A stretch of DNA of 32,233 bases from a virus. Both the position numbers and the translations under genes were made by a program. Shown here in pieces: positions 1,877 through 27,120 of this stretch. Below the pieces are notes generated by a model. It searched no databases and was not told the DNA's origin. It saw only the letters and a program-made list of their open reading frames with translations. The stretch is from IMG/VR virus record IMGVR_UViG_3300012964_000038, positions 1-32,233 of that record. One strand, 5' to 3'. Position 1 is the stretch's first letter, and each line of letters begins with the position of its first letter.

Positions 1877-2310
1877 CGCTCGCCGAGGCGCTCCGCCCGA
1901 CGCTGTCGGCAGCGCGGGCCATCGCGGGGTCCCTCGGGCTTCATCCGTACCGGGTCTACATCCGCTCTGGGTCCTGGGCCGGGACCTACACGGGCGACGG
2001 TGCCGTGACCGTGACGGAGACCGAGGTCACGGAGAACGGGCAGCCCCCGAAGGTCAGGTTCGTCTCGGACGAGACCGTCGCGCTGGGCGCCGTCGCTCGA
2101 GGCTCCTGCACCATCGGCCCTATCACTCCGAGCCATTCGAGCGGCGGGACATCCATCGCGCTCCTCGAAGGTTCCTCCCTGGTGGTTGGTCAAACGTTGC
2201 ACGCTCGCCTAGTCCACTCGGATGGTTCGGAGACCCGATACCGCGTGACGGACGTCGCGAAGGATAGCGCGCTGCACTACACGCTGACGTGCGAACCGGT
2301 GGGTGAATGA
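1873..2310 (+). CDS. hypothetical head-tail joining region protein
   Basis: The frame can open at GTG 1861 or GTG 1873. I prefer 1873 (145 residues) because it makes the four-base GTGA overlap used repeatedly in this operon. The segment PYRVYIRSGSWAGTYTGDG resembles the 'YRV...W.GG..G.G' signature of a phage protein type commonly found between capsid and tail genes. The rest looks like alternating beta strands, with no membrane segment. A role in head closure or tail attachment is inferred from neighbours. Confidence 0.65.
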   Translation: MTLAEALRPTLSAARAIAGSLGLHPYRVYIRSGSWAGTYTGDGAVTVTETEVTENGQPPKVRFVSDETVALGAVARGSCTIGPITPSHSSGGTSIALLEGSSLVVGQTLHARLVHSDGSETRYRVTDVAKDSALHYTLTCEPVGE

Positions 2311-2552
2311 CCCAGCCAGTCCTGCTCCGACAATGGGTTGACCCACATGTGGTGGGACTTCTCGAGGAGATACTCGAACAGGCGAAATCTGGCGATGTTT
2401 CCGCGATAGCGGTGAGCATCATACGGCCAAACGGGTGCGTAGGTTACCGATTTAGATGGCAGAGCGGACAGGTTGGATCGCTTGAGCTTTTGGGGGCCAT
2501 TGAGTTGCTCAAAAGCAAACTCGTGGCTCGACATTTCGAGGATCAGGAGTGA
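2307..2552 (+). CDS. small conserved phage protein of unknown function
   Basis: The 81-residue protein starts at an ATGA overlap with the previous stop. It has an N-terminal helix (VVGLLEEILEQAKSGD), a strand-like AIAVSIIRPNGCVGYRF and a C-terminal helix (LLGAIELLKSKLVARHF). This layout matches a widespread type of small phage protein in which a helix is followed by a strand ending in PDG/PNG. The gene is visibly poorer in G+C than both neighbours, so it may be a late addition to the structural operon. Function unknown. Confidence 0.7.
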   Translation: MTQPVLLRQWVDPHVVGLLEEILEQAKSGDVSAIAVSIIRPNGCVGYRFRWQSGQVGSLELLGAIELLKSKLVARHFEDQE

Positions 2553-3280
2553 CCAGCTCGCTCTACCGTCAAGTCGGCGGCCACGTCTACCCGGCGCTCG
2601 CGTCGGACCTGGACGCCCAGGTCTCGCTCGACACCCTGGACCCGGCAAAGCGGCGGCTGCTGGCCCTGCTGAAAGCGGCCCTGAACGCGGAACTTGGAGG
2701 GGCCTGGACGGTCGTCTCGGCTGCAACGCGCCTCACGGGGACAACGCCGGTCCAGGACGCCTACCCGTACCGCCCGACCCCACAGCGTGTCCAGGAGCGG
2801 AAAGCGGGTTGGCCCGCGCTGTACCTCCACCGAGCCGGCAAGGCATCGTTTGACGAGTTCACGGTGGCGCTGCAGCGCAAGACGCAGCCCTGGCAGCTCC
2901 ACTACATCCTGGGCCCGCTCGAGATCGGGGACTCCGCGAAGCTCGAGGACGCGCTCTGGATGGCGGCAGACGTCGTGGCTTCCGTGCTCGAGTGCGGGTA
3001 CCACCCGGCCTACGAGAGCGGCGCCATGCAGTTCGGGTCCGACCAGGCCGGAATCGCGGTCGCTCGCATGACGGGTGCCGAGGTCGGGGAAGCGCTGTTC
3101 TCAGCGGGCGACAACGTCACCTACTACGCCTGCCTGATGGACCTTGAGACCGAGGAAATCGGGCGGTTCCGCGACGGCATCGCGACCCCGTACGACGGCA
3201 TGTCGGCGACGTACCACGTTGGCGGGTCAGAAGGTCTGGTCCCCGACTTGCTCCAGACCGACACCGACGACCACATCTGA
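2549..3280 (+). CDS. hypothetical neck/tail-completion region protein
   Basis: This 243-residue protein opens at GTG in a GTGA overlap. It has helical stretches near the start (LDPAKRRLLALLKAALNAEL) and a middle block, WQLHYILGPLEIGDSAKLED, followed by another helix. The C-terminal tail is acidic (TDTDDHI). There is no signal peptide or membrane segment. It lies directly upstream of the HK97 gp10-like gene, which suggests a tail-completion or tail-terminator function. I recognise no defining motif and keep the function open. Confidence 0.65.
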   Translation: MTSSLYRQVGGHVYPALASDLDAQVSLDTLDPAKRRLLALLKAALNAELGGAWTVVSAATRLTGTTPVQDAYPYRPTPQRVQERKAGWPALYLHRAGKASFDEFTVALQRKTQPWQLHYILGPLEIGDSAKLEDALWMAADVVASVLECGYHPAYESGAMQFGSDQAGIAVARMTGAEVGEALFSAGDNVTYYACLMDLETEEIGRFRDGIATPYDGMSATYHVGGSEGLVPDLLQTDTDDHI

Positions 3281-7095: not shown

Positions 7096-9534
7096 ATGCC
7101 CGAAATCCTCGAGTACGACTTCCGCGTCATCGGCCTGAACGCCGTCAACCGGGCCCTGGCCTCGGTCGAGCGGCGTTTCGTCGAGCACAACCGGAAGATG
7201 ACGACGCTCGGGGGGTCCGCGGGCGGTCTAGGTGGCAAGGGTGGAGGATTCCGGAAGACGGCAGCGCAGGAGTCCCGGGAAGCGGCCAACGCCCAGCGCA
7301 TGATGGATCGCGCCAACCGGGCCGCGGACCTGGAGCGCACCCGAGCGGACGTCGCCCGACTCCGGTCGTTCGAGCGCGCCGAACTCGAGAAAACCCGGAC
7401 GGTCGAGCGGGAGACCCGAAAGCGGGCAGCGGCAGAGGAGCGCGCGGCGCGGCAGTCGGCGGCGGCGGCCAAGGCGGCGGCTCGCAAGGACGAGGCTTCC
7501 AGAGCCCGGTTCCGCTCCCGCACCGCCGGGTCCGTGACGGGGGCGTTCGGGCACGCCGCGGGCACCGTGGGGCGCTTTGCCGTCGGGGCTGGCACCATCC
7601 TGGGGGGCATCGGGGCAACGGCTGCAGTGGGCAGCCAGATGCGTCTGCTGGGGCAAGCCTCAGCGCTGGCCAACCAGGCCGGCATGCCGGGACGCAAGGG
7701 CGAGATTTTGAACCGGGTGCAGGACATACGGGGCGTGACGGCCGAGAGCGGCATGGGGGCCCTCGAGGGGTGGCAGACCCTGACGGGCGAGCTCAACACG
7801 GGCCTGTCGATGCTGCCCCAGTTGGCCAAGACGGCGCTGGCGACGGGGTCCGACTTGACGGAACTCACGCAGGCCGCCGGCAACGCGTTCAACACGCTCG
7901 GCCAGGACATTACCGACCCGGTGGCCAAGATGGCCGCGCTCGACAACGTCATGCGCACCATCGCGGCCCAGGGCGCCATCGGGGCCGTCGAACTCAAGGA
8001 CCTCGCTCGCGAGATGGCCGGCATGGCGGCCACGGCCGCGCAGTTCGCCGGCGGGACCGAGCGGTCCATCCAGGTCATGGGCGCCATGGCGCAGGTGGCG
8101 CGGTCCAAGGGCGGCGCGGGGTCCGCGGCAGAGGCAATCACGAGCCTCGAGCGGTTCGCCAGCGACCTGGTCGAGAAGTCGTCGACCCTCAAGGCCATGG
8201 GGATCAACGTCTGGACCCCGAAGGGGCAGGGGCCGAAGAAGCTCCGTCGTCAGGAAGACATCATGGTCGACATCCTGACGAAGACGTCGGGCGACCCGGA
8301 GAAGATCGCCAAGGTGTTCGGCATCTACGGCAAGCGCGCCGTGGGCGGGTTCGGTCGCATCTACCAGGAGGCCGAGGCGAAGAAGCCAGGTGCCGGCGCC
8401 GAGGCCGTCAGGGCCGAGTTCAATCGGTTCCTCGACGTGCGCACGGGCGAGAAGGCCATCCAGGAGCGATACCAGAGCCGACTCGAGGACCCCGACATCA
8501 AGGCCGCCGAGGCCCTGAAGGAGTTCAACAAGCAGGTCGGGACGCAACTCCTGCCCGTCATCACCAAGATGATCCCGGAGTTCACAAAGCTCATCCCGCT
8601 GTTCACGAGCGCAGCCGAGGGCGTGGCGAAGTTCGTGGGATGGGTTGCCGAGAACCCCTACAAGGGACTCGGCGTCATCATTTCGGGTCTCGTGGCCAAG
8701 GACCTAGCAGCGGCTGGCATCGGCGCCATGGCGAAGGCCGCCATCGAGGTCGCGCTGACTACAAGCCTGGGCGGGGGACTGCTGGGGAAAGGCGCCACGG
8801 CAGCGGCGCCGGGACTCTTCAGCGTTGGGGGGGCCGGAACAGCGGCGGGGGGAATGAGCAAGGGGGCAGCGGCCCTGGGGACCGTAGGTCTATCGATTGC
8901 CGTTGGCACCGCCACGTTCGCCATCACGAGTGCCGTCATCAACGGAGCCTTTAGCCTCAAGGAAGAGGAGGAGCGGAAGGCTGGAGTAGAAGAGGGGCAA
9001 CGAGGAACGCTGATCAGCGAGGCTGAGGCCCAGAAGGAAGCCAAAGGCGAACTGTCAGGCGACATGAAGAAGCGCCTGAAGGCCGCGATCAAGAAGGAAG
9101 AGGACATCGCGGCCGGCAAGTCTACCACGACCGAATTCACGGGATGGCAGCCAGGACCCAACGGGACCATGGTGCCCACGATGGGCATGAAACCCGTCTC
9201 GGAGGCTGAGAAAGAGGACGCGCGACGCACAGCTGACCAGCTCCGCAAGACCCTGGAAACTCCCAGTGGACAGCTCCCGGACCAAGGGTTCGGGGTCCGC
9301 GACACCGAGTACGAAGGCGGTGGAGTCGCGACATCCCGCATGACGGAAGGCGAGTTGACGAAGAAGACGGCGGCCGAAACGTATGGAGACGCTGGGTTCG
9401 CTGACTGGATCGCCAACATGCAGGCGGGCTCTGACAGCATCGTCCAGCTGACCACGGCAGTCGAGAGCGCGGCCAAGAAGCTCAACGACCTCAACTCCCC
9501 GAACCGCAGCAACTCCCCCACGGTGCCACGGTGA
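7096..9534 (+). CDS. tail tape measure protein
   Basis: This 812-residue protein is the longest in the window and has tape-measure architecture. Residues about 55-135 form a highly charged Arg/Ala/Glu coiled coil. It is followed by a TP901-like region (SALANQAGMPGRKGEI, then TALATGSDLTELTQAAGNAF and VELKDLAREMAGMAA). Gly/Ala-rich hydrophobic segments lie around residues 515-620, and a charged tail follows. The protein fixes tail length and is ejected ahead of DNA. At about 0.15 nm per residue it would suggest a tail near 120 nm, a rule-of-thumb inference. Its stop overlaps the next start by GTGA. Confidence 0.9.
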   Translation: MPEILEYDFRVIGLNAVNRALASVERRFVEHNRKMTTLGGSAGGLGGKGGGFRKTAAQESREAANAQRMMDRANRAADLERTRADVARLRSFERAELEKTRTVERETRKRAAAEERAARQSAAAAKAAARKDEASRARFRSRTAGSVTGAFGHAAGTVGRFAVGAGTILGGIGATAAVGSQMRLLGQASALANQAGMPGRKGEILNRVQDIRGVTAESGMGALEGWQTLTGELNTGLSMLPQLAKTALATGSDLTELTQAAGNAFNTLGQDITDPVAKMAALDNVMRTIAAQGAIGAVELKDLAREMAGMAATAAQFAGGTERSIQVMGAMAQVARSKGGAGSAAEAITSLERFASDLVEKSSTLKAMGINVWTPKGQGPKKLRRQEDIMVDILTKTSGDPEKIAKVFGIYGKRAVGGFGRIYQEAEAKKPGAGAEAVRAEFNRFLDVRTGEKAIQERYQSRLEDPDIKAAEALKEFNKQVGTQLLPVITKMIPEFTKLIPLFTSAAEGVAKFVGWVAENPYKGLGVIISGLVAKDLAAAGIGAMAKAAIEVALTTSLGGGLLGKGATAAAPGLFSVGGAGTAAGGMSKGAAALGTVGLSIAVGTATFAITSAVINGAFSLKEEEERKAGVEEGQRGTLISEAEAQKEAKGELSGDMKKRLKAAIKKEEDIAAGKSTTTEFTGWQPGPNGTMVPTMGMKPVSEAEKEDARRTADQLRKTLETPSGQLPDQGFGVRDTEYEGGGVATSRMTEGELTKKTAAETYGDAGFADWIANMQAGSDSIVQLTTAVESAAKKLNDLNSPNRSNSPTVPR

Positions 9535-10418
9535 CCGACGTCCTCTCCCCGCTTCCTATCTCGAGTTGGCGCGGGATTGAGTTCCCCGTCACGGACCGGA
9601 CCGTCACGTTCGCCCACGACACCGTAGACCAGAAGATCCAGTTCCGCAACGGATTCCCCGTCGACATCACGGGGGCGCAGAGCATGCGGTTCCGCTACAC
9701 GGTACCCCTCGACGAGGGAATCGTACGCGGTCCGTTCAAGAACCTCTTCACTGCGACCCTCAAGAAGTTCTTCGATGCCGTCTACGACAAGACTCCGGGC
9801 GTGCTCGTGGACCCTGTGTACGGCGTCTTCACGTGCAAGCCCGTACTGTTCGACGAGAAGCTGCGGGCGCAGATCCGAAGCGGTACCGTTGTCGATGTCG
9901 AGTTCGTGCAGCACGTGGAGGTCACGGACGAGACTGAGCTCGAGCTCGCTACCCTGAAGTCCGCGGAGTCACAGGCGGGAGCTCTCGACCGGGAAGTGGC
10001 GTCCGCCCCTTGGCCGGAGGACGAGGAGTTCGAGCCATCGGTGGACCCGCTGGCGCAGATCGCGGGGTACGGCCGACAACTCGAGTTCATCGGGAATCGG
10101 TTCGTCGCGTTGCTCGACAAGGTCGCGTACCGGACCGAGCGCATCGAGGCCGCAGCTGAGGCTCTCGAGAGCCCAGACCGAGCCGGCATCATCCGCGCTG
10201 CTCGGCGCACCAGACTCGCGACCCTGAAGCTCAAGTCCCGTGGTACTAACCCTGGCAAGACGATCCGGCGCCTGCGCAAGAACGCAGACATGACGCTTTC
10301 GGCCATCGCGGCTGAGGTCGGGATGACGTTGGACGACCTGCTCAAGATCAACCCGATGCTGGCCACCAAGAGCGTCGTGGAAGCCGGCACGCCCGTCAAC
10401 TACTGGAAATCTACGTGA
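9531..10418 (+). CDS. Mu gp43/DNA circularisation-like baseplate protein with LysM-like C-terminus
   Basis: The 295-residue protein sits directly after the tape measure, where Mu-type phages encode the gp43 (N) protein of the 'DNA circularisation N-terminal' family. The N-terminal 130 residues are beta-rich and open with a W-R-G-I-E-F-P-V segment typical of that position. The middle is helical and acidic. The last 50 residues (DMTLSAIAAEVGMTLDDLL, then a KINPML turn and AGTPVNYW) look like a LysM fold, which in baseplates binds peptidoglycan or neighbouring subunits. It starts at GTG in a GTGA overlap and is coupled likewise to the hub gene. Confidence 0.72.
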   Translation: MTDVLSPLPISSWRGIEFPVTDRTVTFAHDTVDQKIQFRNGFPVDITGAQSMRFRYTVPLDEGIVRGPFKNLFTATLKKFFDAVYDKTPGVLVDPVYGVFTCKPVLFDEKLRAQIRSGTVVDVEFVQHVEVTDETELELATLKSAESQAGALDREVASAPWPEDEEFEPSVDPLAQIAGYGRQLEFIGNRFVALLDKVAYRTERIEAAAEALESPDRAGIIRAARRTRLATLKLKSRGTNPGKTIRRLRKNADMTLSAIAAEVGMTLDDLLKINPMLATKSVVEAGTPVNYWKST

Positions 10419-16489: not shown

Positions 16490-17610
16490 GCTTCTCACGA
16501 GCAAAGCCTGTTGGGTTCGCGCCTGGCGATCGACTGCTGTCGACCGAGATCGAACAGATCGACGTCAACCAGAGCCGAGCGTTGGACACGTACGCCGGAG
16601 GCACCTACGCCACCAACGCCGGTCAGACGATCGGGATCACGACCCCCGTAAGCCTGACCGACTTTCGTGGCACCATCACGGCCACCAATGTCCTGACCGT
16701 GATGCCTGGGGCCTACATCGTCTGCCCCGGGTTTCTCAACATCTCGAACGGAGGACTCCAGGAAGTCCAGAACGGCGGGAACGTCAACGTCAAGGGCGGA
16801 GGACACGTTCACGTAGAGTCTGGAGGCGAGATAGACCTTGCGTCGGGTGGTATTCTGTACGGGGTATCCGGGTCCGTCGTCAACATCGAGGGGACCTTCA
16901 CAGCAGACAACATGGTGGACTGCCACGTCAAGACGGGGGAATACCTCGTCATCGACTCCGGAGGTGGGATCAACGCCTACGGCACCATCATCGTCCAGCT
17001 CAGCGCCAACATCGACGTTGAAGACGGTGGCGACATCGAGATCAAGTCCGGAGGCGACGTCAACCTGCAGAGCGGTGGCCACCTCCACGTCGCCGACCCT
17101 ACCAACATCATCGTAACGTCGTATACCAGGAACTTCTACCTGACGCCTTTGGGGGGCGCGGCGGACGGCCTGTACAATTTCGACGTCACGTCGGCATACG
17201 GGACGAACATTGGCTGGATTCAGGGAGCTGGCCCAGGCGCTGGAGACCACTTCCAGGTGGGGCTTCAGGGTATCAGCCGGCGAGCTGTCGTTACGGCCGT
17301 CGTGATGCATTGCAAAGCCGCTGGTGGGCATGCCGGTCTCCCTACCACGATGCCTGAGATCAGCTTCGGGCAGGAGAACGTCACGACCGGCGTCATCACC
17401 AACATTGGGAGTCAAGTCGATACATCTGCGACGACTGGGGTCTATCAGTCCTACCACGCGGTCGCCATCACGCCCCTGACGCAGTCTCTCTACACCAGCA
17501 ATCCATACGTCGTATCGGTCAAGGGAGAGTCGGGGACCAACGCGGTCGCGGGGTTCGAGGTCTACAGCATCGAGATTGTGTGCGCCTTCACTGCGATCGA
17601 GAACGGTTAG
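16486..17610 (+). CDS. tail fibre protein with short beta-helix repeats
   Basis: The protein has 374 residues and starts at an ATGA overlap. After about 75 residues it has runs of 6-8-residue units with paired glycines and alternating Val/Ile/His (GGNVNVKGGGHVHVESGG, later GGDIEIKSGGDVNLQSGG). This pattern suits a trimeric beta-helix or beta-solenoid shaft. The C-terminal 170 residues are a separate globular-looking domain (LYNFDVTSAYGTNIGWIQ). It probably forms a side fibre. The stop overlaps, in opposite orientation, the stop of the metalloprotease gene by four bases. Confidence 0.78.
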   Translation: MSFSRAKPVGFAPGDRLLSTEIEQIDVNQSRALDTYAGGTYATNAGQTIGITTPVSLTDFRGTITATNVLTVMPGAYIVCPGFLNISNGGLQEVQNGGNVNVKGGGHVHVESGGEIDLASGGILYGVSGSVVNIEGTFTADNMVDCHVKTGEYLVIDSGGGINAYGTIIVQLSANIDVEDGGDIEIKSGGDVNLQSGGHLHVADPTNIIVTSYTRNFYLTPLGGAADGLYNFDVTSAYGTNIGWIQGAGPGAGDHFQVGLQGISRRAVVTAVVMHCKAAGGHAGLPTTMPEISFGQENVTTGVITNIGSQVDTSATTGVYQSYHAVAITPLTQSLYTSNPYVVSVKGESGTNAVAGFEVYSIEIVCAFTAIENG

Positions 17611-18128
17611 CGGTAGACGTGGTCACACCCGCCAATGGCCTCACACCACATCAGGGCGTCGATGTCGGTAAGGTGTGAGATGGCGGGGTCTAGTTTGGCC
17701 GCCATGATGGCATCGGGGTGGCTCGAGTGGCCAATACCCAGATGATGGCCGATCTCGTGCAGCGCTATGGTCCGTAGCCGGTCTCCATCCATGACGTCGT
17801 AAGCTTCAGCTGTCGCCCAAATGTTGATCGTATGATCGGAACCCTGGAGAAGACCTTCGGTGTCGTACCTACCAGCGCAACGGATGTCGCCTGACGTACA
17901 GTCTGGTACCAGGATGAGTTTGTTGTCGGTCGAAAGAGCCTGAGCTGTCCATACGAGACACCTCTCGCCCATCGTGACGTCACACCACTCGTTGGCCGCG
18001 TCCCACAGGACGTCGATCCGAGACCGTGCCTCGGGTGAGACCCAGAAGAGGTCATCCTTGGCCGACCCGCATCCTGTCTCCAGGACGACCACCAGGACCA
18101 ACAGCGCTATCATGCTCCATCGTGTCAT
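17607..18128 (-). CDS. exported metzincin-type zinc metalloprotease
   Basis: The 173-residue protein has an N-terminal signal peptide: charged MTRW, a hydrophobic run of Ile/Leu/Val, then LETGC at residues 16-20, an imperfect lipobox because Glu occupies the -3 site. Near the C-terminus HEIGHHLGIGHS gives zinc ligands His124, His128 and His134 with catalytic Glu125. Met142 follows in a DAIM turn, together the signature of matrixin-like metzincins. Further cysteines suggest disulfides in an exported protein. It should cleave proteins outside the cytoplasm; the target is unknown. It is the only protease in the fibre region and lies opposite to all late genes, suggesting a cargo gene. Confidence 0.82.
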   Translation of the reverse strand: MTRWSMIALLVLVVVLETGCGSAKDDLFWVSPEARSRIDVLWDAANEWCDVTMGERCLVWTAQALSTDNKLILVPDCTSGDIRCAGRYDTEGLLQGSDHTINIWATAEAYDVMDGDRLRTIALHEIGHHLGIGHSSHPDAIMAAKLDPAISHLTDIDALMWCEAIGGCDHVYR

Positions 18129-21629: not shown

Positions 21630-24029
21630 ATGGCCATCAAGATCACCACAAGACCATCGCAGACCCCTGGTGGATCTGCTGTATATTCAAACTACTTGAG
21701 GTCCAAAATGCGGATCGGTACTGGCACCGGGATCAATATGTCGACGGGGTCCCCGATGGTAACCATCACGTCTCCGTTGGCGGGGACGGTGTTCGTTGTA
21801 GGAATTGCAACGTCGGTGTCACTGGTGGGGAATGATCAGGACTACGAGTGCAGTTTCGATCCCGATTTCGCCAACATCCGTGGGACCATCACGGTCACGG
21901 GTAGAGTTGGAACCGGGGACGTCACGGCTGGAGTTGGCGACGCGGGGGAGCTCTCCCTCTACATCCGCGAAGTCGGCGGCACGACGGCCCGGGCCACGCT
22001 GGCGTGCACGGTCATCACAGCAGCTATCACGCTCGACCTTCCGGCTCCTGCGACCGAGCTCATTGCTGGCACCGTCACGACGTTCTCGGGAACGTGCACG
22101 ACGGGCTGCACCGTCGCGCTCTATCGTGCGACAGGTGAGTCGGACAAGATTGCCGACGCGGTAGTCGTGGGCGCAACGTGGTCGTACGATTACGCGCCGT
22201 CAATTGCCGACGTCGTGGCAGGCCTTACCGCGGTCTACGCGGTGGCGACCCTGGGTCCGAACACAGCCGAGGACTCTGTGGCCATCACGGTCGCACTGCC
22301 GGGTGATCCCGATGCCTTCCACTTCGCGGCTTCGGGAGCATCCTACATGACGCTTTCAGGTAGCGATGTCACTCAATGGCACGACCTTACCCGAAACACC
22401 AATCACGCCACGGATGGCACAACACGACCGGTGTTCACCGAACCAGGTGGGGGAGCGGACCCATATCTGGCATTCACGAAGGAGGACGCGGATCGACTGC
22501 TTATTCCTTACGCTTGGGCGAACGGACTTTCTGAATGTTCCGTGGCCGTGTCAATGCAGACGCCTGGCTCGGGCACCTACCACATGGTGTGGGACTTCTA
22601 CAACGGGCTGAAACTGGCATATCTGACGGATGTTCTGTTCATCTGGCATTCCTCGTCTCCCAGTAGCACCGTATCGCCAGTGGTCACGAACACCGACCAC
22701 ACGATCCTAGTAACGTACGATGGATCGATCACCGTAGTCGGTGACCGTGTGAAAGTGTGGGTTGACGGTGAACATCGACCATTGGAGTCAGTGGTGGCGT
22801 GGCCAGCTACGCTGGCTGCCAGTCATAGCGCGGGTCGGTTGGGTCAGCGTGGCGATGCTGCGTTCCCTCTCACGGGTCGCATGCACGCATTTTCGAGATG
22901 GAATCATGCTCTAGACGAGGCAGAGATTGCCGAGTTCTTTACGATGTGTCGAGCGGAACTTGCGTACACCAGCACATGGTCCGACACGGGGACAACGCTT
23001 ACGGAGCATTTCAACGCCTCGCCGACACTGGGGGCAGAACTAGCGCTGACAGCGTCAGGTCTCACTGTCACCCCTGGATCACCAGTCACTGTCTACGACA
23101 AGGCAGCGTTGCACGTAGCCTTCACGAGTCTACGCAAGCTGGACGCCACGACATACCGCGTGTATTTCCGCAATGGGGCGGAGCACGTAGAATCGACTGG
23201 CAAGATCCAATACTGTGAGTCCATCGGCGGCTATGCTGTGTGGGGGGTTCCGGTTGATATCGTCAACACGGTCGGCGTCGATGATCGCGACCCTAGAGTC
23301 TGTGATTACGATGGTACCGAGACGATTCTTTGGGTGAAGTACCCGGACGAGGGAACGCTCCAACTGTTCCGCCAGCCCGTTGCTGGCGGGGCGGTTACGA
23401 ACGTCTGCGGCTACCCTCAGGTAGCTGCTACGCAAGCAGTGTCCTCCCAAGGTCAGGCTGTCGAGGGGGAGGACATCATTGTCACCTATGGAGGTCCAAA
23501 CACCTACGTCGGGCGGCTGGGCACGGTGATTGCTGGCACAGACGTCTATTGGACGTCAGCACCCAGCGATGGCGGGGGCGATACATACAAGATTTACGAA
23601 CCTTCTGTACTGCGACTGGCCAGTGGGGATTTGCTGCTCGTGGCTCGCACGGGGCATCCGGCGTCTGCTACTGGACCGTGCTTGCAGTTGCGATCAGCTG
23701 ATGACGGCGTAACGTGGGCTAGCGCGCAGTTATTCCCGGCCACTCATGGAGGCGAACCGCTGGGCCTAGATTCTCCGTTCGTGTTCCAGATGTCGACGGG
23801 TACGCTGGTAGTAGTCGGGCGTCGAAAGTACGCGACTGGAGTCCCGCTCACGCTGCTCTACTCGACAGACGACGGGGCGACCTGGAGCGCTCCTGTGGAC
23901 CTGTTTGATTTGACGCAAGTTGACTCCGGCTACTGTGGCGTTGTGGAGATCGACAGCACACACATCCTGCTCAGCTACTACTACGACAGCGCGACGGAGA
24001 TCCGTGTTGTGCCCGTGACTATCTCATGA
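21630..24029 (+). CDS. large receptor-binding tail protein with LamG-like and sialidase-like domains
   Basis: The protein has 799 residues. After about 40 residues come two Ig-like segments (MVTITSPLAGTVFVVG; LDLPAPATELIAGTVTTF). A LamG-like domain spans roughly 225-440, with FHFAASGASYMTLSG and VTQWHDLTRNTNHATDG characteristic of its opening. The rest looks like a beta-propeller: EPSVLRLASGDLLLVARTG matches sialidase blades, and two Asp boxes, SADDGVTWASAQ near residue 688 and STDDGATWSAPV near 744, are clear. It may recognise or cut surface glycans; catalytic residues could not be assigned. It probably is the distal adhesin of the virion. Confidence 0.78.
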   Translation: MAIKITTRPSQTPGGSAVYSNYLRSKMRIGTGTGINMSTGSPMVTITSPLAGTVFVVGIATSVSLVGNDQDYECSFDPDFANIRGTITVTGRVGTGDVTAGVGDAGELSLYIREVGGTTARATLACTVITAAITLDLPAPATELIAGTVTTFSGTCTTGCTVALYRATGESDKIADAVVVGATWSYDYAPSIADVVAGLTAVYAVATLGPNTAEDSVAITVALPGDPDAFHFAASGASYMTLSGSDVTQWHDLTRNTNHATDGTTRPVFTEPGGGADPYLAFTKEDADRLLIPYAWANGLSECSVAVSMQTPGSGTYHMVWDFYNGLKLAYLTDVLFIWHSSSPSSTVSPVVTNTDHTILVTYDGSITVVGDRVKVWVDGEHRPLESVVAWPATLAASHSAGRLGQRGDAAFPLTGRMHAFSRWNHALDEAEIAEFFTMCRAELAYTSTWSDTGTTLTEHFNASPTLGAELALTASGLTVTPGSPVTVYDKAALHVAFTSLRKLDATTYRVYFRNGAEHVESTGKIQYCESIGGYAVWGVPVDIVNTVGVDDRDPRVCDYDGTETILWVKYPDEGTLQLFRQPVAGGAVTNVCGYPQVAATQAVSSQGQAVEGEDIIVTYGGPNTYVGRLGTVIAGTDVYWTSAPSDGGGDTYKIYEPSVLRLASGDLLLVARTGHPASATGPCLQLRSADDGVTWASAQLFPATHGGEPLGLDSPFVFQMSTGTLVVVGRRKYATGVPLTLLYSTDDGATWSAPVDLFDLTQVDSGYCGVVEIDSTHILLSYYYDSATEIRVVPVTIS

Positions 24030-24274
24030 CCCGCGCGCTAGCGCTCGGATTCCTCCTCTCCGCCTGCACCCCCTCGGCGCAGCGGGACGCGGCATTGGCT
24101 GCGGTCGTAGCCGGAGCCACAGCTTCAGTCGCCTGCGGCATCGCTAACGGGCAGACACACCACCAGTTCCAGCTCGGAGCCTGCGCGATCGTGGGGGGAA
24201 GCATCGCGATCGGTGGCGGGGTCGTACTGCACTCACAACTCGAGGCGGGTGACCGCCAAGGAGATGGTCGATGA
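24026..24274 (+). CDS. small outer-membrane-type lipoprotein
   Basis: The 82-residue protein begins at an ATGA overlap. It has a canonical lipoprotein signal: MTRALALGF followed by LLSAC, with the lipidated Cys at residue 14. The mature part has two Ala/Gly-rich hydrophobic stretches (ALAAVVAGATASVACGIA; ACAIVGGSIAIGGGVVL) and ends charged. It opens the lysis region, just before a holin-like gene. A spanin-like or lysis accessory role is possible, but it is too hydrophobic for a typical outer-membrane spanin. Function undetermined. Confidence 0.72.
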   Translation: MTRALALGFLLSACTPSAQRDAALAAVVAGATASVACGIANGQTHHQFQLGACAIVGGSIAIGGGVVLHSQLEAGDRQGDGR

Positions 24275-24945
24275 CTCAAGTACTCGCATTCATCAACACG
24301 CATCCGCTCGGAGTGTCGGCGTGCACCGTCGTGCTCGTCTTCGTGCTGCGGCTGCTGTCGCGCTCAGGATACCCGGAGTTCCTCCCGTTCCTGCCTGCGT
24401 GGGCAGACCTCACGACGTGGGGCAAGTGGGGATGGCCCGGGCGCATCGGGCAAGGCGTTGTGACCTGCCTGCTCTCGGGGGGCGTCGTGCTTGCCGCGGG
24501 GCTCGAGGACATGGTCCTCACCGACGCGGAACTGCAGGCCGCTGGTGAAGCGTGTCTCGGCGCGTTCGGGCTCTGGCACGGGCTGAAGAAGCTCGCTCCG
24601 GGGAAGGGGGCCAAGAAGGCTCCGATCACCCTGCCGTCCGTCACGCTTCTGCTGATGGCGCTGCCGGGTTGCGGCCTGCTCCAGAGCGCACCGGTCCAGT
24701 CAGGGCTCGCCGCGGCGGAGGCCGTGTGCACCAATACCCTTCTCCGCTCCCCCGACGTCCAGCGGATGCTGATCCAGTCCGGCGTCGTGCCCGAGTCGGT
24801 GGCGACCGTCATCGAGTCGGCGTGCGCGGTGCTGGCGGCGACGAAGCCAGGCCTCGAAAGTCTGCTCGAGCAAGCGGACAAGGCGCGGGCTCCCCGTGAT
24901 CGCGTCCTGTCGGCTGAGGCTAGGAGCCGAGGGCTACTGCCGTGA
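24271..24945 (+). CDS. holin-like membrane protein with internal lipobox
   Basis: The 224-residue protein has an AAGGAG Shine-Dalgarno and an ATGA overlap. The N-terminal 95 residues contain two membrane segments (VSACTVVLVFVLRLL; then GVVTCLLSGGVVLAAG) and a helix (EACLGAFGLWHGLKKL), consistent with a holin-type protein. A Lys-rich stretch then precedes SVTLLLMALPGCGLLQS around residues 122-138. This looks like a second signal peptide ending in a lipobox, and the rest is a mostly helical C-terminal domain. It may be a fusion or may carry a second internal start. It lies between the lipoprotein and the protease in the lysis region. Confidence 0.6.
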   Translation: MTQVLAFINTHPLGVSACTVVLVFVLRLLSRSGYPEFLPFLPAWADLTTWGKWGWPGRIGQGVVTCLLSGGVVLAAGLEDMVLTDAELQAAGEACLGAFGLWHGLKKLAPGKGAKKAPITLPSVTLLLMALPGCGLLQSAPVQSGLAAAEAVCTNTLLRSPDVQRMLIQSGVVPESVATVIESACAVLAATKPGLESLLEQADKARAPRDRVLSAEARSRGLLP

Positions 24946-25835
24946 CCCGACTCCTGATCACCCTGATGGCACTGGCCGCGCTCCTCGGGGCGTACTGCCA
25001 GAGGCCCCCGTCACCTCCCGGAACTGGCGGGACGGCCGGGTATGGAGACACTCCGGTCCTCACCGGTGGAGCCCAGGGAACGGGCGGCTCGGTGGCGGCG
25101 ACTGGTGGGGCGGCCAGCACTGGCGGGACGAAGGTCTGCGTCGCCGTCGAGCGGACCTCCCATGAGCCACGCACTCGATCAGTCAAGCCTCGGGTGATCA
25201 ACGGCGACGACGCGCCGGTCGGCGCCTTCCCATGGGTGTGCAGCCTGCAGACCGGCTCCGGGTGGCACTTCTGCGGTGGGAGTCTGACGGGACCCCAGGA
25301 GGTAACCACGGCCGCGCATTGCCAGGTGGACCCCGGGGACGTGGTGCTCTGCGGCCGGACCGTGCTCTCTGGCTCAGGCGGGGAGACGCGCCGGGTACTG
25401 GCTGTCCGCAGCAACCCAGGGTGGTCGGCGACCACAAGCGGCGACGACGTGTCTCTGCTTCGGCTCGATGCTCCGATCTCGACCATCACGCCCATCGAGC
25501 TCGGTCCGAAGGGAGTGGGTCCGGTCTACATCCTCGGATGGGGAGTGACCGAGTCGGGGACAGGAGCCACCCATCTGCAGATCGCCGAGGCCACGCTTCA
25601 GAGCTGCTACCCGTACGGATCGAGCATCGATGAGACCATGCTCTGCGCGAGCGGGGTATCCCCGTCGGGCGGAATCACCGATGGCTGCCAGGGCGACAGC
25701 GGAGGTCCTCTGCTGCAGAACGGGCGAGTGGTGGGGGTCACGAGCTGGGGTAACGGGTGCGCGCAGCCTGGATGGCCAGGTGTGTGGACCGACGTCGGAG
25801 CGGTGCTCCAATGGGTGGAGTCCTGTAGATGGTGA
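24942..25835 (+). CDS. exported trypsin-like serine protease (S1 family)
   Basis: The 297-residue protein starts at GTG in a GTGA overlap. It has an N-terminal signal (LLITLMALAALLGAYC) and a Thr/Gly-rich linker to about residue 62. The catalytic domain begins after Arg84, where R-V-I-N-G resembles the zymogen activation site. The triad is complete: His126 in TTAAHC, Asp169 in DDVSLL and Ser253 in DGCQGDSGGPLL. Asp247, six residues before Ser253, matches chymotrypsin Asp189 and predicts cleavage after Arg/Lys, so self-activation at Arg84 is possible. The C-terminal SWGNG and PGVWTDV segments are also S1-like. Lipidation is doubtful because Tyr precedes Cys19. It sits between holin-like and endolysin genes. 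Confidence 0.88.
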   Translation: MTRLLITLMALAALLGAYCQRPPSPPGTGGTAGYGDTPVLTGGAQGTGGSVAATGGAASTGGTKVCVAVERTSHEPRTRSVKPRVINGDDAPVGAFPWVCSLQTGSGWHFCGGSLTGPQEVTTAAHCQVDPGDVVLCGRTVLSGSGGETRRVLAVRSNPGWSATTSGDDVSLLRLDAPISTITPIELGPKGVGPVYILGWGVTESGTGATHLQIAEATLQSCYPYGSSIDETMLCASGVSPSGGITDGCQGDSGGPLLQNGRVVGVTSWGNGCAQPGWPGVWTDVGAVLQWVESCRW

Positions 25836-26590
25836 TCGGAGGACACGTGGCATCAGTACATGACGAAGCCAGAATCTACGCTTGCAACGCGGTGGGGACG
25901 CTCACTGGACAGGACCCACACTTCAACGCTACCCGCCACCTTGCTGGAGTCGGTCACCTCGAGACCAGTTACGGGCGTGGCTGGAAGGGGGCCGGCGTTG
26001 GGTCGTGGAATATCGGAGCGATCCAAGCCGGAGCTTCGTGGAACGGGGACGTGTTCGTCTACACGGACACGCACCCGAATCCTGACGGTAGTTCGACTCC
26101 CTACCAGGTCGCTTTCCGCAAGTACCCAACTCCGCAGGCAGGATGGGACGATCTGGCCCGAGTCATGTTCGTGGGGAGGAGACGCCCCGTGCTCATCGCT
26201 GCGAGTCGCGGGGACACGTATTGGGTCAGCGAACTGATGCGCGGGACGGGGTACTATGAGGGCTTTGGCCCCACACAGAACGACAGGATCCGCAATCACT
26301 ACCTGGCTCTGCGACGCGGCATCGTGGCCGCCGACGTTGCCCAAGGCATCGAGGTTCCGAAGGGCTCCCCGGTCGGAGTCCCGAAGACAGTGCGCCGCGG
26401 AGACCGAGGCGAGGACGTCAAGGTTCTGCAGCGCGAACTTGGACTCGCGGCAGACGGACTATTCGGTCCCGTCACGGAACGTGAGGTCAATGAGTATCAG
26501 CAGCTCGGAGGGCTCAACCCTGATGGCATCGTGGGCCCCGCAACGTGGACCGCGTTGTTCCAGGATGGGTTCGTGCCCGAGGAAGGATGA
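25829..26590 (+). CDS. endolysin: lysozyme-like domain plus peptidoglycan-binding domain
   Basis: The first ATG, 25829, gives 253 residues, but GTG 25847 has a GGAGG four bases upstream and may be the main start; both are in frame. The N-terminal domain looks lysozyme-like: GVGHLETSYG with candidate catalytic Glu45, NIGAIQAG, a Y-P-T-P-Q-A-G-W turn and MRGTGYYEGFG. Residues about 185-248 are a PG_binding_1-type domain (VRRGDRGEDVKVLQREL, then ADGLFGPVTEREV and DGIVGPATWTAL). It degrades cell-wall peptidoglycan for lysis. No signal peptide is seen, so export needs the holin-like protein. The gene overlaps the protease stop. Confidence 0.85.
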   Translation: MVIGGHVASVHDEARIYACNAVGTLTGQDPHFNATRHLAGVGHLETSYGRGWKGAGVGSWNIGAIQAGASWNGDVFVYTDTHPNPDGSSTPYQVAFRKYPTPQAGWDDLARVMFVGRRRPVLIAASRGDTYWVSELMRGTGYYEGFGPTQNDRIRNHYLALRRGIVAADVAQGIEVPKGSPVGVPKTVRRGDRGEDVKVLQRELGLAADGLFGPVTEREVNEYQQLGGLNPDGIVGPATWTALFQDGFVPEEG

Positions 26591-27120
26591 CGATGGACCC
26601 ACGACACCCTGAATCCGAGGCCCCCGAACCTGGAGCTGTTCCGCGCGAATCTGGGGGTATCAGCGCCCGAATCGCGCAGTACTGCGACCGCACCGTGTTC
26701 GATCCCGATCGAACGATCGACGCCCTGATGGCCCGTGAGACGGCCGATACCCTACGTCCACCGGAAGAGGACTCGGACCGTGGGACTCTTCCCCCGGGGA
26801 GCGACCCGATCGACGACCCGGCGCACCTGTCGCTTGTGGGGACGATCGAGTCAGGGTTGGACAAGCGTTTCGCCGACATCATGGCCAGCGTCCTGGAGAA
26901 GGTATCGGCTGTCCACGTTGAGCTCCGCTCACTCCGGACCGAGATCAACGCCTACGCGCGCCACATGGAGTTGCTCCAGCGGTCCGCAGAGCGTGCCGCG
27001 GATGCCATGACGGAGCTCGTGACTCGGGTCGAGCAACTCGCAGACCGTCTCGACAGGACCGAGCACATGTGCGCCCTGCGCCACGGAAACGGAGCTACGA
27101 TACCCCAGGTGATCGAGTGA
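26587..27120 (+). CDS. coiled-coil protein of lysis region
   Basis: The start at ATG 26587 (ATGA overlap, 177 residues) is preferred over an upstream GTG-type opening within the endolysin. The first 80 residues are Pro/Asp/Glu-rich and probably unstructured. From about residue 85 the protein is strongly helical with heptad-like spacing (LEKVSAVHVELRSLRTEI; MTELVTRVEQLADRLDRTE). There is no membrane segment. It may act with the next, membrane-anchored coiled-coil protein. Function unknown. Confidence 0.7.
   Translation: MTMDPRHPESEAPEPGAVPRESGGISARIAQYCDRTVFDPDRTIDALMARETADTLRPPEEDSDRGTLPPGSDPIDDPAHLSLVGTIESGLDKRFADIMASVLEKVSAVHVELRSLRTEINAYARHMELLQRSAERAADAMTELVTRVEQLADRLDRTEHMCALRHGNGATIPQVIE

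Follow-up and report, generated by a model that had tools for sequence, protein, structure and literature searches.

The lysis operon of a contractile-tailed phage contains a gene for a trypsin-like serine protease zymogen, placed between a holin-like gene and the endolysin gene and overlapping both. The phage is represented by a 32,233-base IMG/VR virus-record fragment from environmental DNA, the whole of which is referred to here as the window. The protease gene (24942-25835, plus strand) begins with GTG and encodes 297 amino acids. Its closest relatives are the trypsins of three other phages (contigs L009, L010, and L086), with which it shares 39-49% identity. The enzyme family is an ordinary one; what is unusual is its location, its membership in a phage-only clade, and the possible exchange of one protease for another at the same position in related phages. 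In searches of the open-licence literature, no description of a phage lysis-cassette trypsin turned up. We propose, tentatively and at somewhat less than even confidence, that this phage-borne, Sec-exported, and probably anchored zymogen is an auxiliary lysis or release enzyme that acts in the host envelope. The lysis mechanisms known in phages rely on holins, on endolysins that cut peptidoglycan, and on spanins or disruptins that act on membranes. If the proposal is true, a protease dedicated to lysis would constitute a new kind of lysis step, would offer a way to test how the outer envelope is opened by phages without a recognised classical spanin, and would provide a compact, self-contained, membrane-tethered trypsin zymogen of phage origin.

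Domain architecture of the protease

The Pfam Trypsin profile (PF00089) aligns nearly its whole length, positions 2-220 of 220, with residues 86-292 and scores 138.3 bits (gathering cut-off 20.6; E 4.3e-40), and the top relative in a search of PDB sequences is the Saccharopolyspora erythraea trypsin 4m7g (E 2.2e-42). The catalytic residues, all encoded on the plus strand, are His126 (25317-25319, equivalent to His57), Asp169 (25446-25448, Asp102), and Ser253 within GDSGGP (25698-25700, Ser195). Together with Asp247 of the S1 pocket (25680-25682, equivalent to the Asp189 of Arg/Lys specificity), they do not vary among the 28 sequences compared, which come from phages and bacteria. An AlphaFold2 model built with 28 relatives (pTM 0.75) displays the strand pattern usual for trypsins and a C-terminal helix; for most of residues 91-297, block-mean pLDDT lies at about 86-97, but blocks 201-210, 241-250, and 271-280 reach only 60-78, and confidence in the linker is low. 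A model made with four sequences (pLDDT 34) was set aside in favour of this one. The top Foldseek match of the model is also 4m7g (E 1e-19, TM 0.85 by target, 2.1 Å). A full-length Pfam domain, the triad residues, the Asp189 equivalent, and the modelled two-barrel chymotrypsin fold place the protein among the S1A (trypsin) proteases; the enzyme is apparently intact, and Arg/Lys-type specificity is predicted from its residues. The preliminary description of this DNA had claimed complete trypsin-like S1 landmarks and had named a structure without the double barrel as the outcome that would speak against them; Pfam, PDB, and fold searches agree with the claim, and the model has the trypsin fold. 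The S. erythraea enzyme (4m7g/5dj7) has the same catalytic domain, triad, and Asp189-type pocket and is 40% identical in the fold comparison, but it is a bacterial, secreted protein, whereas the signal and lipobox-like start, the Gly/Thr linker, the pattern of propeptide and C-terminal cysteines, and the lysis-operon setting belong to the phage protein.

Export and an activation-like R-V-I-N-G site, also part of the preliminary description, are both borne out. The N-terminus contains a hydrophobic signal segment by hydropathy (LLITLMALAALLGAYCQ, residues 4-20, 24951-25001, plus strand), followed by a Gly/Thr-rich linker (residues ~26-63, 25017-25130, plus strand). This linker resembles the TGG linkers of the L010 and L086 trypsins and those of lipoproteins found at the same locus in two sister phages, L002 and L048. 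In the alignment, Cys19 lines up with the lipobox cysteines of the relatives; the window sequence G-A-Y-C, with a non-canonical Tyr at -1, does not match the lipobox pattern [LVI][ASTVI][GAS]C. The lipobox positions of L010 and L086 are also odd at -1 (Thr and Arg, respectively), and L009 has the canonical L-T-S-C. We infer that Cys19 would be the site of lipid attachment, with a lipobox that is degenerate in the window.

The propeptide extends from Cys66 to Arg84 (25137-25193, plus strand), with cleavage predicted after Arg84 in Arg84-Val85-Ile-Asn-Gly; the S1A domain begins at Val85. Leaving aside the cysteine at the lipobox position, the pro-region and domain contain ten cysteines. Three pairs are standard by position (111/127, 222/235, and 249/273). 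Cys100 and Cys137 are both found in the window and L009, and neither is found in L010, L086, or L050, a chromosomal trypsin of a Polyangiaceae MAG. Propeptide Cys66 and C-terminal Cys295 have counterparts in all five of these proteins. Cysteine totals are even in every case (10 in the window and L009; 8 in L010, L086, and L050), and from these even totals and the co-occurrence of the two residues we infer a Cys66-Cys295 disulphide, a bridge that would keep the activated enzyme on its stalk. In chymotrypsinogen-type zymogens, a Cys1-Cys122 tether holds the propeptide on the activated domain. The phage protein likewise has a propeptide cysteine able to tether the activated domain, but its partner is predicted in the C-terminal helix (Cys295) rather than at position 122. 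The cysteine plan shared by the phage clade and the Polyangiaceae relative suggests an autoactivating, tethered zymogen.

The lysis operon and its counterpart in sister phages

Overlapping plus-strand genes follow one another in the order small lipoprotein, holin-like gene, trypsin, endolysin, and two further small genes. The trypsin start at 24942 overlaps the upstream stop at 24945 by 4 bp (GTGA), and the endolysin ATG at 25829 overlaps the trypsin stop at 25835 by 7 bp. The endolysin (25829-26590, plus strand), recognised by Pfam, PHROG, and NCBIfam, consists of a FlgJ-glucosaminidase-like N-terminal part and PG_binding_1, and is 81% identical in L002. The holin-like ORF (24271-24945, plus strand) has two predicted membrane segments and a third, lipobox-like segment (LPGC); it has no match in Pfam, PHROG, or NCBIfam. 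The trypsin is thus co-directional with, and overlapped between, an endolysin gene and a holin-type gene. As to the flanking genes that had been claimed earlier, the overlaps and the endolysin stand, and “holin-like” is a designation by hydropathy and by synteny with L002 and L048 only. A consensus scan of 23900-26700 found neither promoter-like nor terminator-like sites.

The first gene of the series (24026-24274, plus strand) encodes a small lipoprotein of 82 amino acids with an LSAC lipobox and two hydrophobic segments, identified by hydropathy and by its matches in the sister phages. It is 79-88% identical in L002 and L048 (81% in L048), and the holin-like gene beside it is just 31% identical in these phages. 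This lipoprotein is a unimolecular-spanin candidate for the window phage; were it a spanin, the trypsin would assist the spanin rather than replace it. The C-terminal half of the holin-like ORF is also lipoprotein-like, opened by LPGC or SGC, in the window (24271-24945), L002 (6433-7107), and L048 (10250-10924), possibly reflecting a fusion or an internal start. In L009 and L010, a small lipoprotein has a gene of its own, as opposed to the C-terminal half of the holin-like ORF elsewhere.

Neither sister phage has a match to the trypsin. Between their holin-like and lysin genes, L002 and L048 have two genes, one for a lipoprotein whose linker is of the same PP-TGG type and one whose product shows papain-like motifs. 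The L002 slot protein aligns end to end over 215 residues, with a weak E of 0.034, with the cysteine protease 3ois in the PDB, and its DQG-x-x-G-x-C, GH, and NSWG motifs (Cys, His, and Asn) are in register; it also has a weak match to a PHROG “peptidase” (E 0.005). The L048 slot protein belongs to PHROG 19005, a family of unknown function (E 2e-28), and has no PDB match; a related protein in MW202816, encoded beside an amidase, carries the deposited annotation “cysteine protease”. Pfam Peptidase_C1 matches neither slot gene, nor does it match in a dedicated search of phage records. We consider a papain-like enzyme likely in the case of L002 and plausible in that of L048. The two slot proteins have no meaningful alignment with each other and may be non-homologous. 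If unrelated proteases do share one slot, this would suggest that proteolysis itself is the selected trait; should the papain-like assignment be true, a kept place in which the protease type seems to change would be a good comparative argument that selection acts on proteolysis. By hydropathy, neither slot protease has a signal peptide; unlike the trypsin, they would exit with the endolysin via holin lesions. In L002, the slot protease gene is separated from that of the endolysin by a weakly HNH-endonuclease-like ORF (9252-9911, minus strand; Pfam HNH_3, E 4e-4, under the cut-off), perhaps a homing insertion.

Phage and bacterial relatives of the trypsin

In a tree of 57 trypsin domains, with limited bacterial sampling, the trypsins of the window, L009, L010, and L086 form one clade (support 99/90) that is separate from the trypsins of Myxococcota and other bacteria; the trypsins from 379 Myxococcota genomes fall outside it. 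A phylogeny had been proposed as a check on whether the nearest relatives are proteins of the host, for example of Myxococcota. In this tree, the nearest relatives are the phage clade, and the gene is not a lone acquisition from a host. The order of genes in L009 is holin (PHROG 13712, E 1e-18), a 65-amino-acid ORF, trypsin, and an NlpC/CHAP-like gene (motif only), and in L010 it is a holin-like gene (PHROG 1356, weak E of 0.003), a small lipoprotein, trypsin, and a lysozyme-like gene (motif only). No lysin gene was recognised beside the L086 trypsin. A small lipoprotein gene lies directly upstream of the trypsin in L010, in L011 (identical to L010 over 15,224 shared bases), and in L086. DNA similarity between L010 and L086 is restricted to this lipoprotein and trypsin pair (84% and 79%), and dN/dS between the two trypsins is 0.23; the pair therefore looks like a module that selection maintains. 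In the search of 8-kb flanks, the trypsin is the sole window gene that matches the L009, L010, and L086 contigs, and matches in a sheath profile search are confined to the window and the phage of L048. Phages of different backgrounds thus have the trypsin in common.

A further concern was that the assembly had joined host and phage DNA at this point. An assembly artefact of this kind, or a decayed passenger gene, has in its favour that the window is a fragment of a virus record from environmental sequence, yet we consider it hardly credible. The frames overlap both adjoining genes (by 4 and 7 bp) and three other phages have related trypsins in comparable places, which argues against a chimera; in addition, both flanking blocks are common to a sister phage, the catalytic residues are intact, and the clade is under purifying selection.

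Trypsins are rare in cultured phages, as had been claimed: one of 50,697 records has a detectable relative, the serine protease gp109 of Rhodococcus phage Shagrat (OQ938576.1; tblastn). The Shagrat protein is also an S1 protease with a signal-peptide-like start, but it is 31% identical, has a very long branch, and lies outside any lysis cassette. From a set of 2.9 million environmental virus contigs, a first alignment query recovered at least 39 loci and a second query one more, counts that are lower bounds owing to a pattern prefilter and that may include some host-derived contigs. Used as single-protein queries, neither the trypsin nor the tail sheath had a match in the viral contigs, whereas alignment queries did. 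The claim of rarity is qualified by a second phage clade (support 100/99) comprising the lipoprotein trypsins of marine T4-like phages on about 20 contigs (L012-L032 and others). These trypsins are likewise phage-borne lipoproteins, but they form a clade of their own, often have a dockerin-like C-terminal extension, and occur among replication and nucleotide genes; clamp, clamp loader, and DNA polymerase genes are nearby, and lysis genes are not.

Outside phages, the nearest architecture is that of L050 (JAFGIS010000419.1), which has the same lipobox-like start, long linker, and C-terminal cysteine, and a propeptide cysteine about 20 residues ahead of Arg-Ile-Val-Gly-Gly (cleavage predicted after Arg). 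In contrast to the phage genes, it is chromosomal, adjoins glycine-cleavage genes and a subtilisin-like gene, is about 35% identical to the window protein, and falls outside the phage clade. The Gly/Thr-rich “TGG” linkers appear to resemble those of Polyangiales lipoproteins. These linkers and the cysteine plan of the Polyangiaceae trypsin are circumstantial pointers to a Myxococcota host. The contractile tail genes of the window include a sheath (PHROG 165, E 5e-50), Baseplate_J, and baseplate wedge proteins. By sheath, the nearest annotated genome is MW202476, an uncultured Caudoviricetes from Manatee Spring (43% identity over 100%), which has most of the structural module in common with the window at ~35-45% identity. 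A search of the 379 Myxococcota genomes for the sheath returned distant matches only and no close prophage. The best two of these matches (G374:C198:181812-183323 and G296:C27:15109-16632) each have one TGA inside the matched stretch.

Possible roles in the envelope

If it serves lysis in an auxiliary way, the trypsin would be made late in infection, its translation coupled through the overlapping frames to that of the holin-like gene and the endolysin. It would then be exported by Sec and probably lipid-attached at Cys19, and the Gly/Thr-rich stalk would hold the catalytic domain off the membrane. A cut after Arg84 would free the Val85 N-terminus and activate the trypsin, with the predicted Cys66-Cys295 disulphide acting as a tether; since the enzyme has trypsin specificity, this could be a self-cleavage. 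Once the holin and endolysin act, the trypsin would cut envelope or periplasmic proteins after Arg or Lys and so remove protein links that slow outer-membrane rupture and release. In favour of the auxiliary-lysis reading are the intact domain with its full triad and S1 Asp, frames that overlap both lysis neighbours, a supported clade, and relatives whose neighbouring genes encode holins or small lipoproteins of lysis type. Several points count against it. The papain-like slot genes fail Pfam C1 and, lacking a signal peptide, would differ from the trypsin in their route to the periplasm; the downstream lysins of L009 and L010 are assigned by motif only, and L086 has no lysin next to its trypsin; and the trypsins of marine T4-like phages are not among lysis genes. 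No protease was seen in the lysis region of MW202476, which has a related structural module, so a protease is not essential.

A broader proposal, more speculative and unlikely as it stands, is that lysis includes a proteolytic step in some phages with Gram-negative (perhaps Myxococcota) hosts, and that unrelated proteases of trypsin or papain-like type can be exchanged in a slot flanked by holin and endolysin. The trypsin, made as a zymogen that is tethered and activates itself, would break protein links in the envelope and so replace or help the spanin step.

Rather than opening the envelope, a late-made trypsin freed at lysis could cut receptors on debris, vesicles, and neighbouring cells (or matrix proteins), such that progeny avoid adhering to dead material. 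The late operon position, the broad specificity predicted for a trypsin, and a stalked zymogen suited to cell surfaces agree with such a function, and a surface role accommodates the marine T4-like lipoprotein trypsins, away from lysis genes, better than lysis does. We nevertheless regard it as unlikely: the predicted tether would hold the enzyme on the host's own membranes, and release by lysis needs no signal peptide. Envelope export and zymogen control would also suit a protease active during infection against envelope stress or host defences (e.g., one that cuts periplasmic defence proteins or host protease inhibitors), but the late position in the operon makes this very improbable. A role in virion entry was considered and is unlikely, given the signal peptide and operon position.

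The trypsin could also be secreted cargo (a moron), a host-type exported protease that aids the lysogen or infected cell, for instance by digesting proteins of prey or competitors. Precedent exists in Bfp3, a C10 cysteine protease with a lipoprotein leader from the Bacteroides fragilis prophage Bfgi2, described as SpeB-related cargo, for which a location within a holin-endolysin operon is not shown (PMC2873492). Like the window trypsin, Bfp3 is borne by a phage genome and has a lipoprotein leader, but it belongs to another protease family. The chromosomal Polyangiaceae lipoprotein trypsin, with the same propeptide and C-terminal cysteines, is further consistent with cargo, as is a matrixin-type lipoprotein of the window phage itself, whose opposite-strand placement is typical of morons. 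In contrast, the trypsin gene is on the sense strand, its frames overlapped within the lysis operon and with no promoter-like site of its own, so that cargo would be made mainly near cell bursting; nor was an integrase seen within the 32,233-base fragment. Cargo is accordingly a doubtful explanation, and the auxiliary-lysis reading is preferred to it.

The matrixin-type (M10) lipoprotein lies among the tail genes (17607-18128, minus strand) and combines a Pfam Peptidase_M10 match above the cut-off (7e-9, 36.2 bits against 24) with the HExxHxxGxxH motif (HEIGHHLGIGH). The same kind of gene is found on the opposite strand amid the tail genes of L048 (2572-3174, minus strand) and L086 (3810-4235, minus strand), and in all three phages its placement is that of a moron. 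The window phage and the phage of L086 thus have two exported protease genes each. At the position of the matrixin lipoprotein of the others, L010 has a gene for a long TGG-repeat lipoprotein among its tail genes (1920-2822, minus strand).
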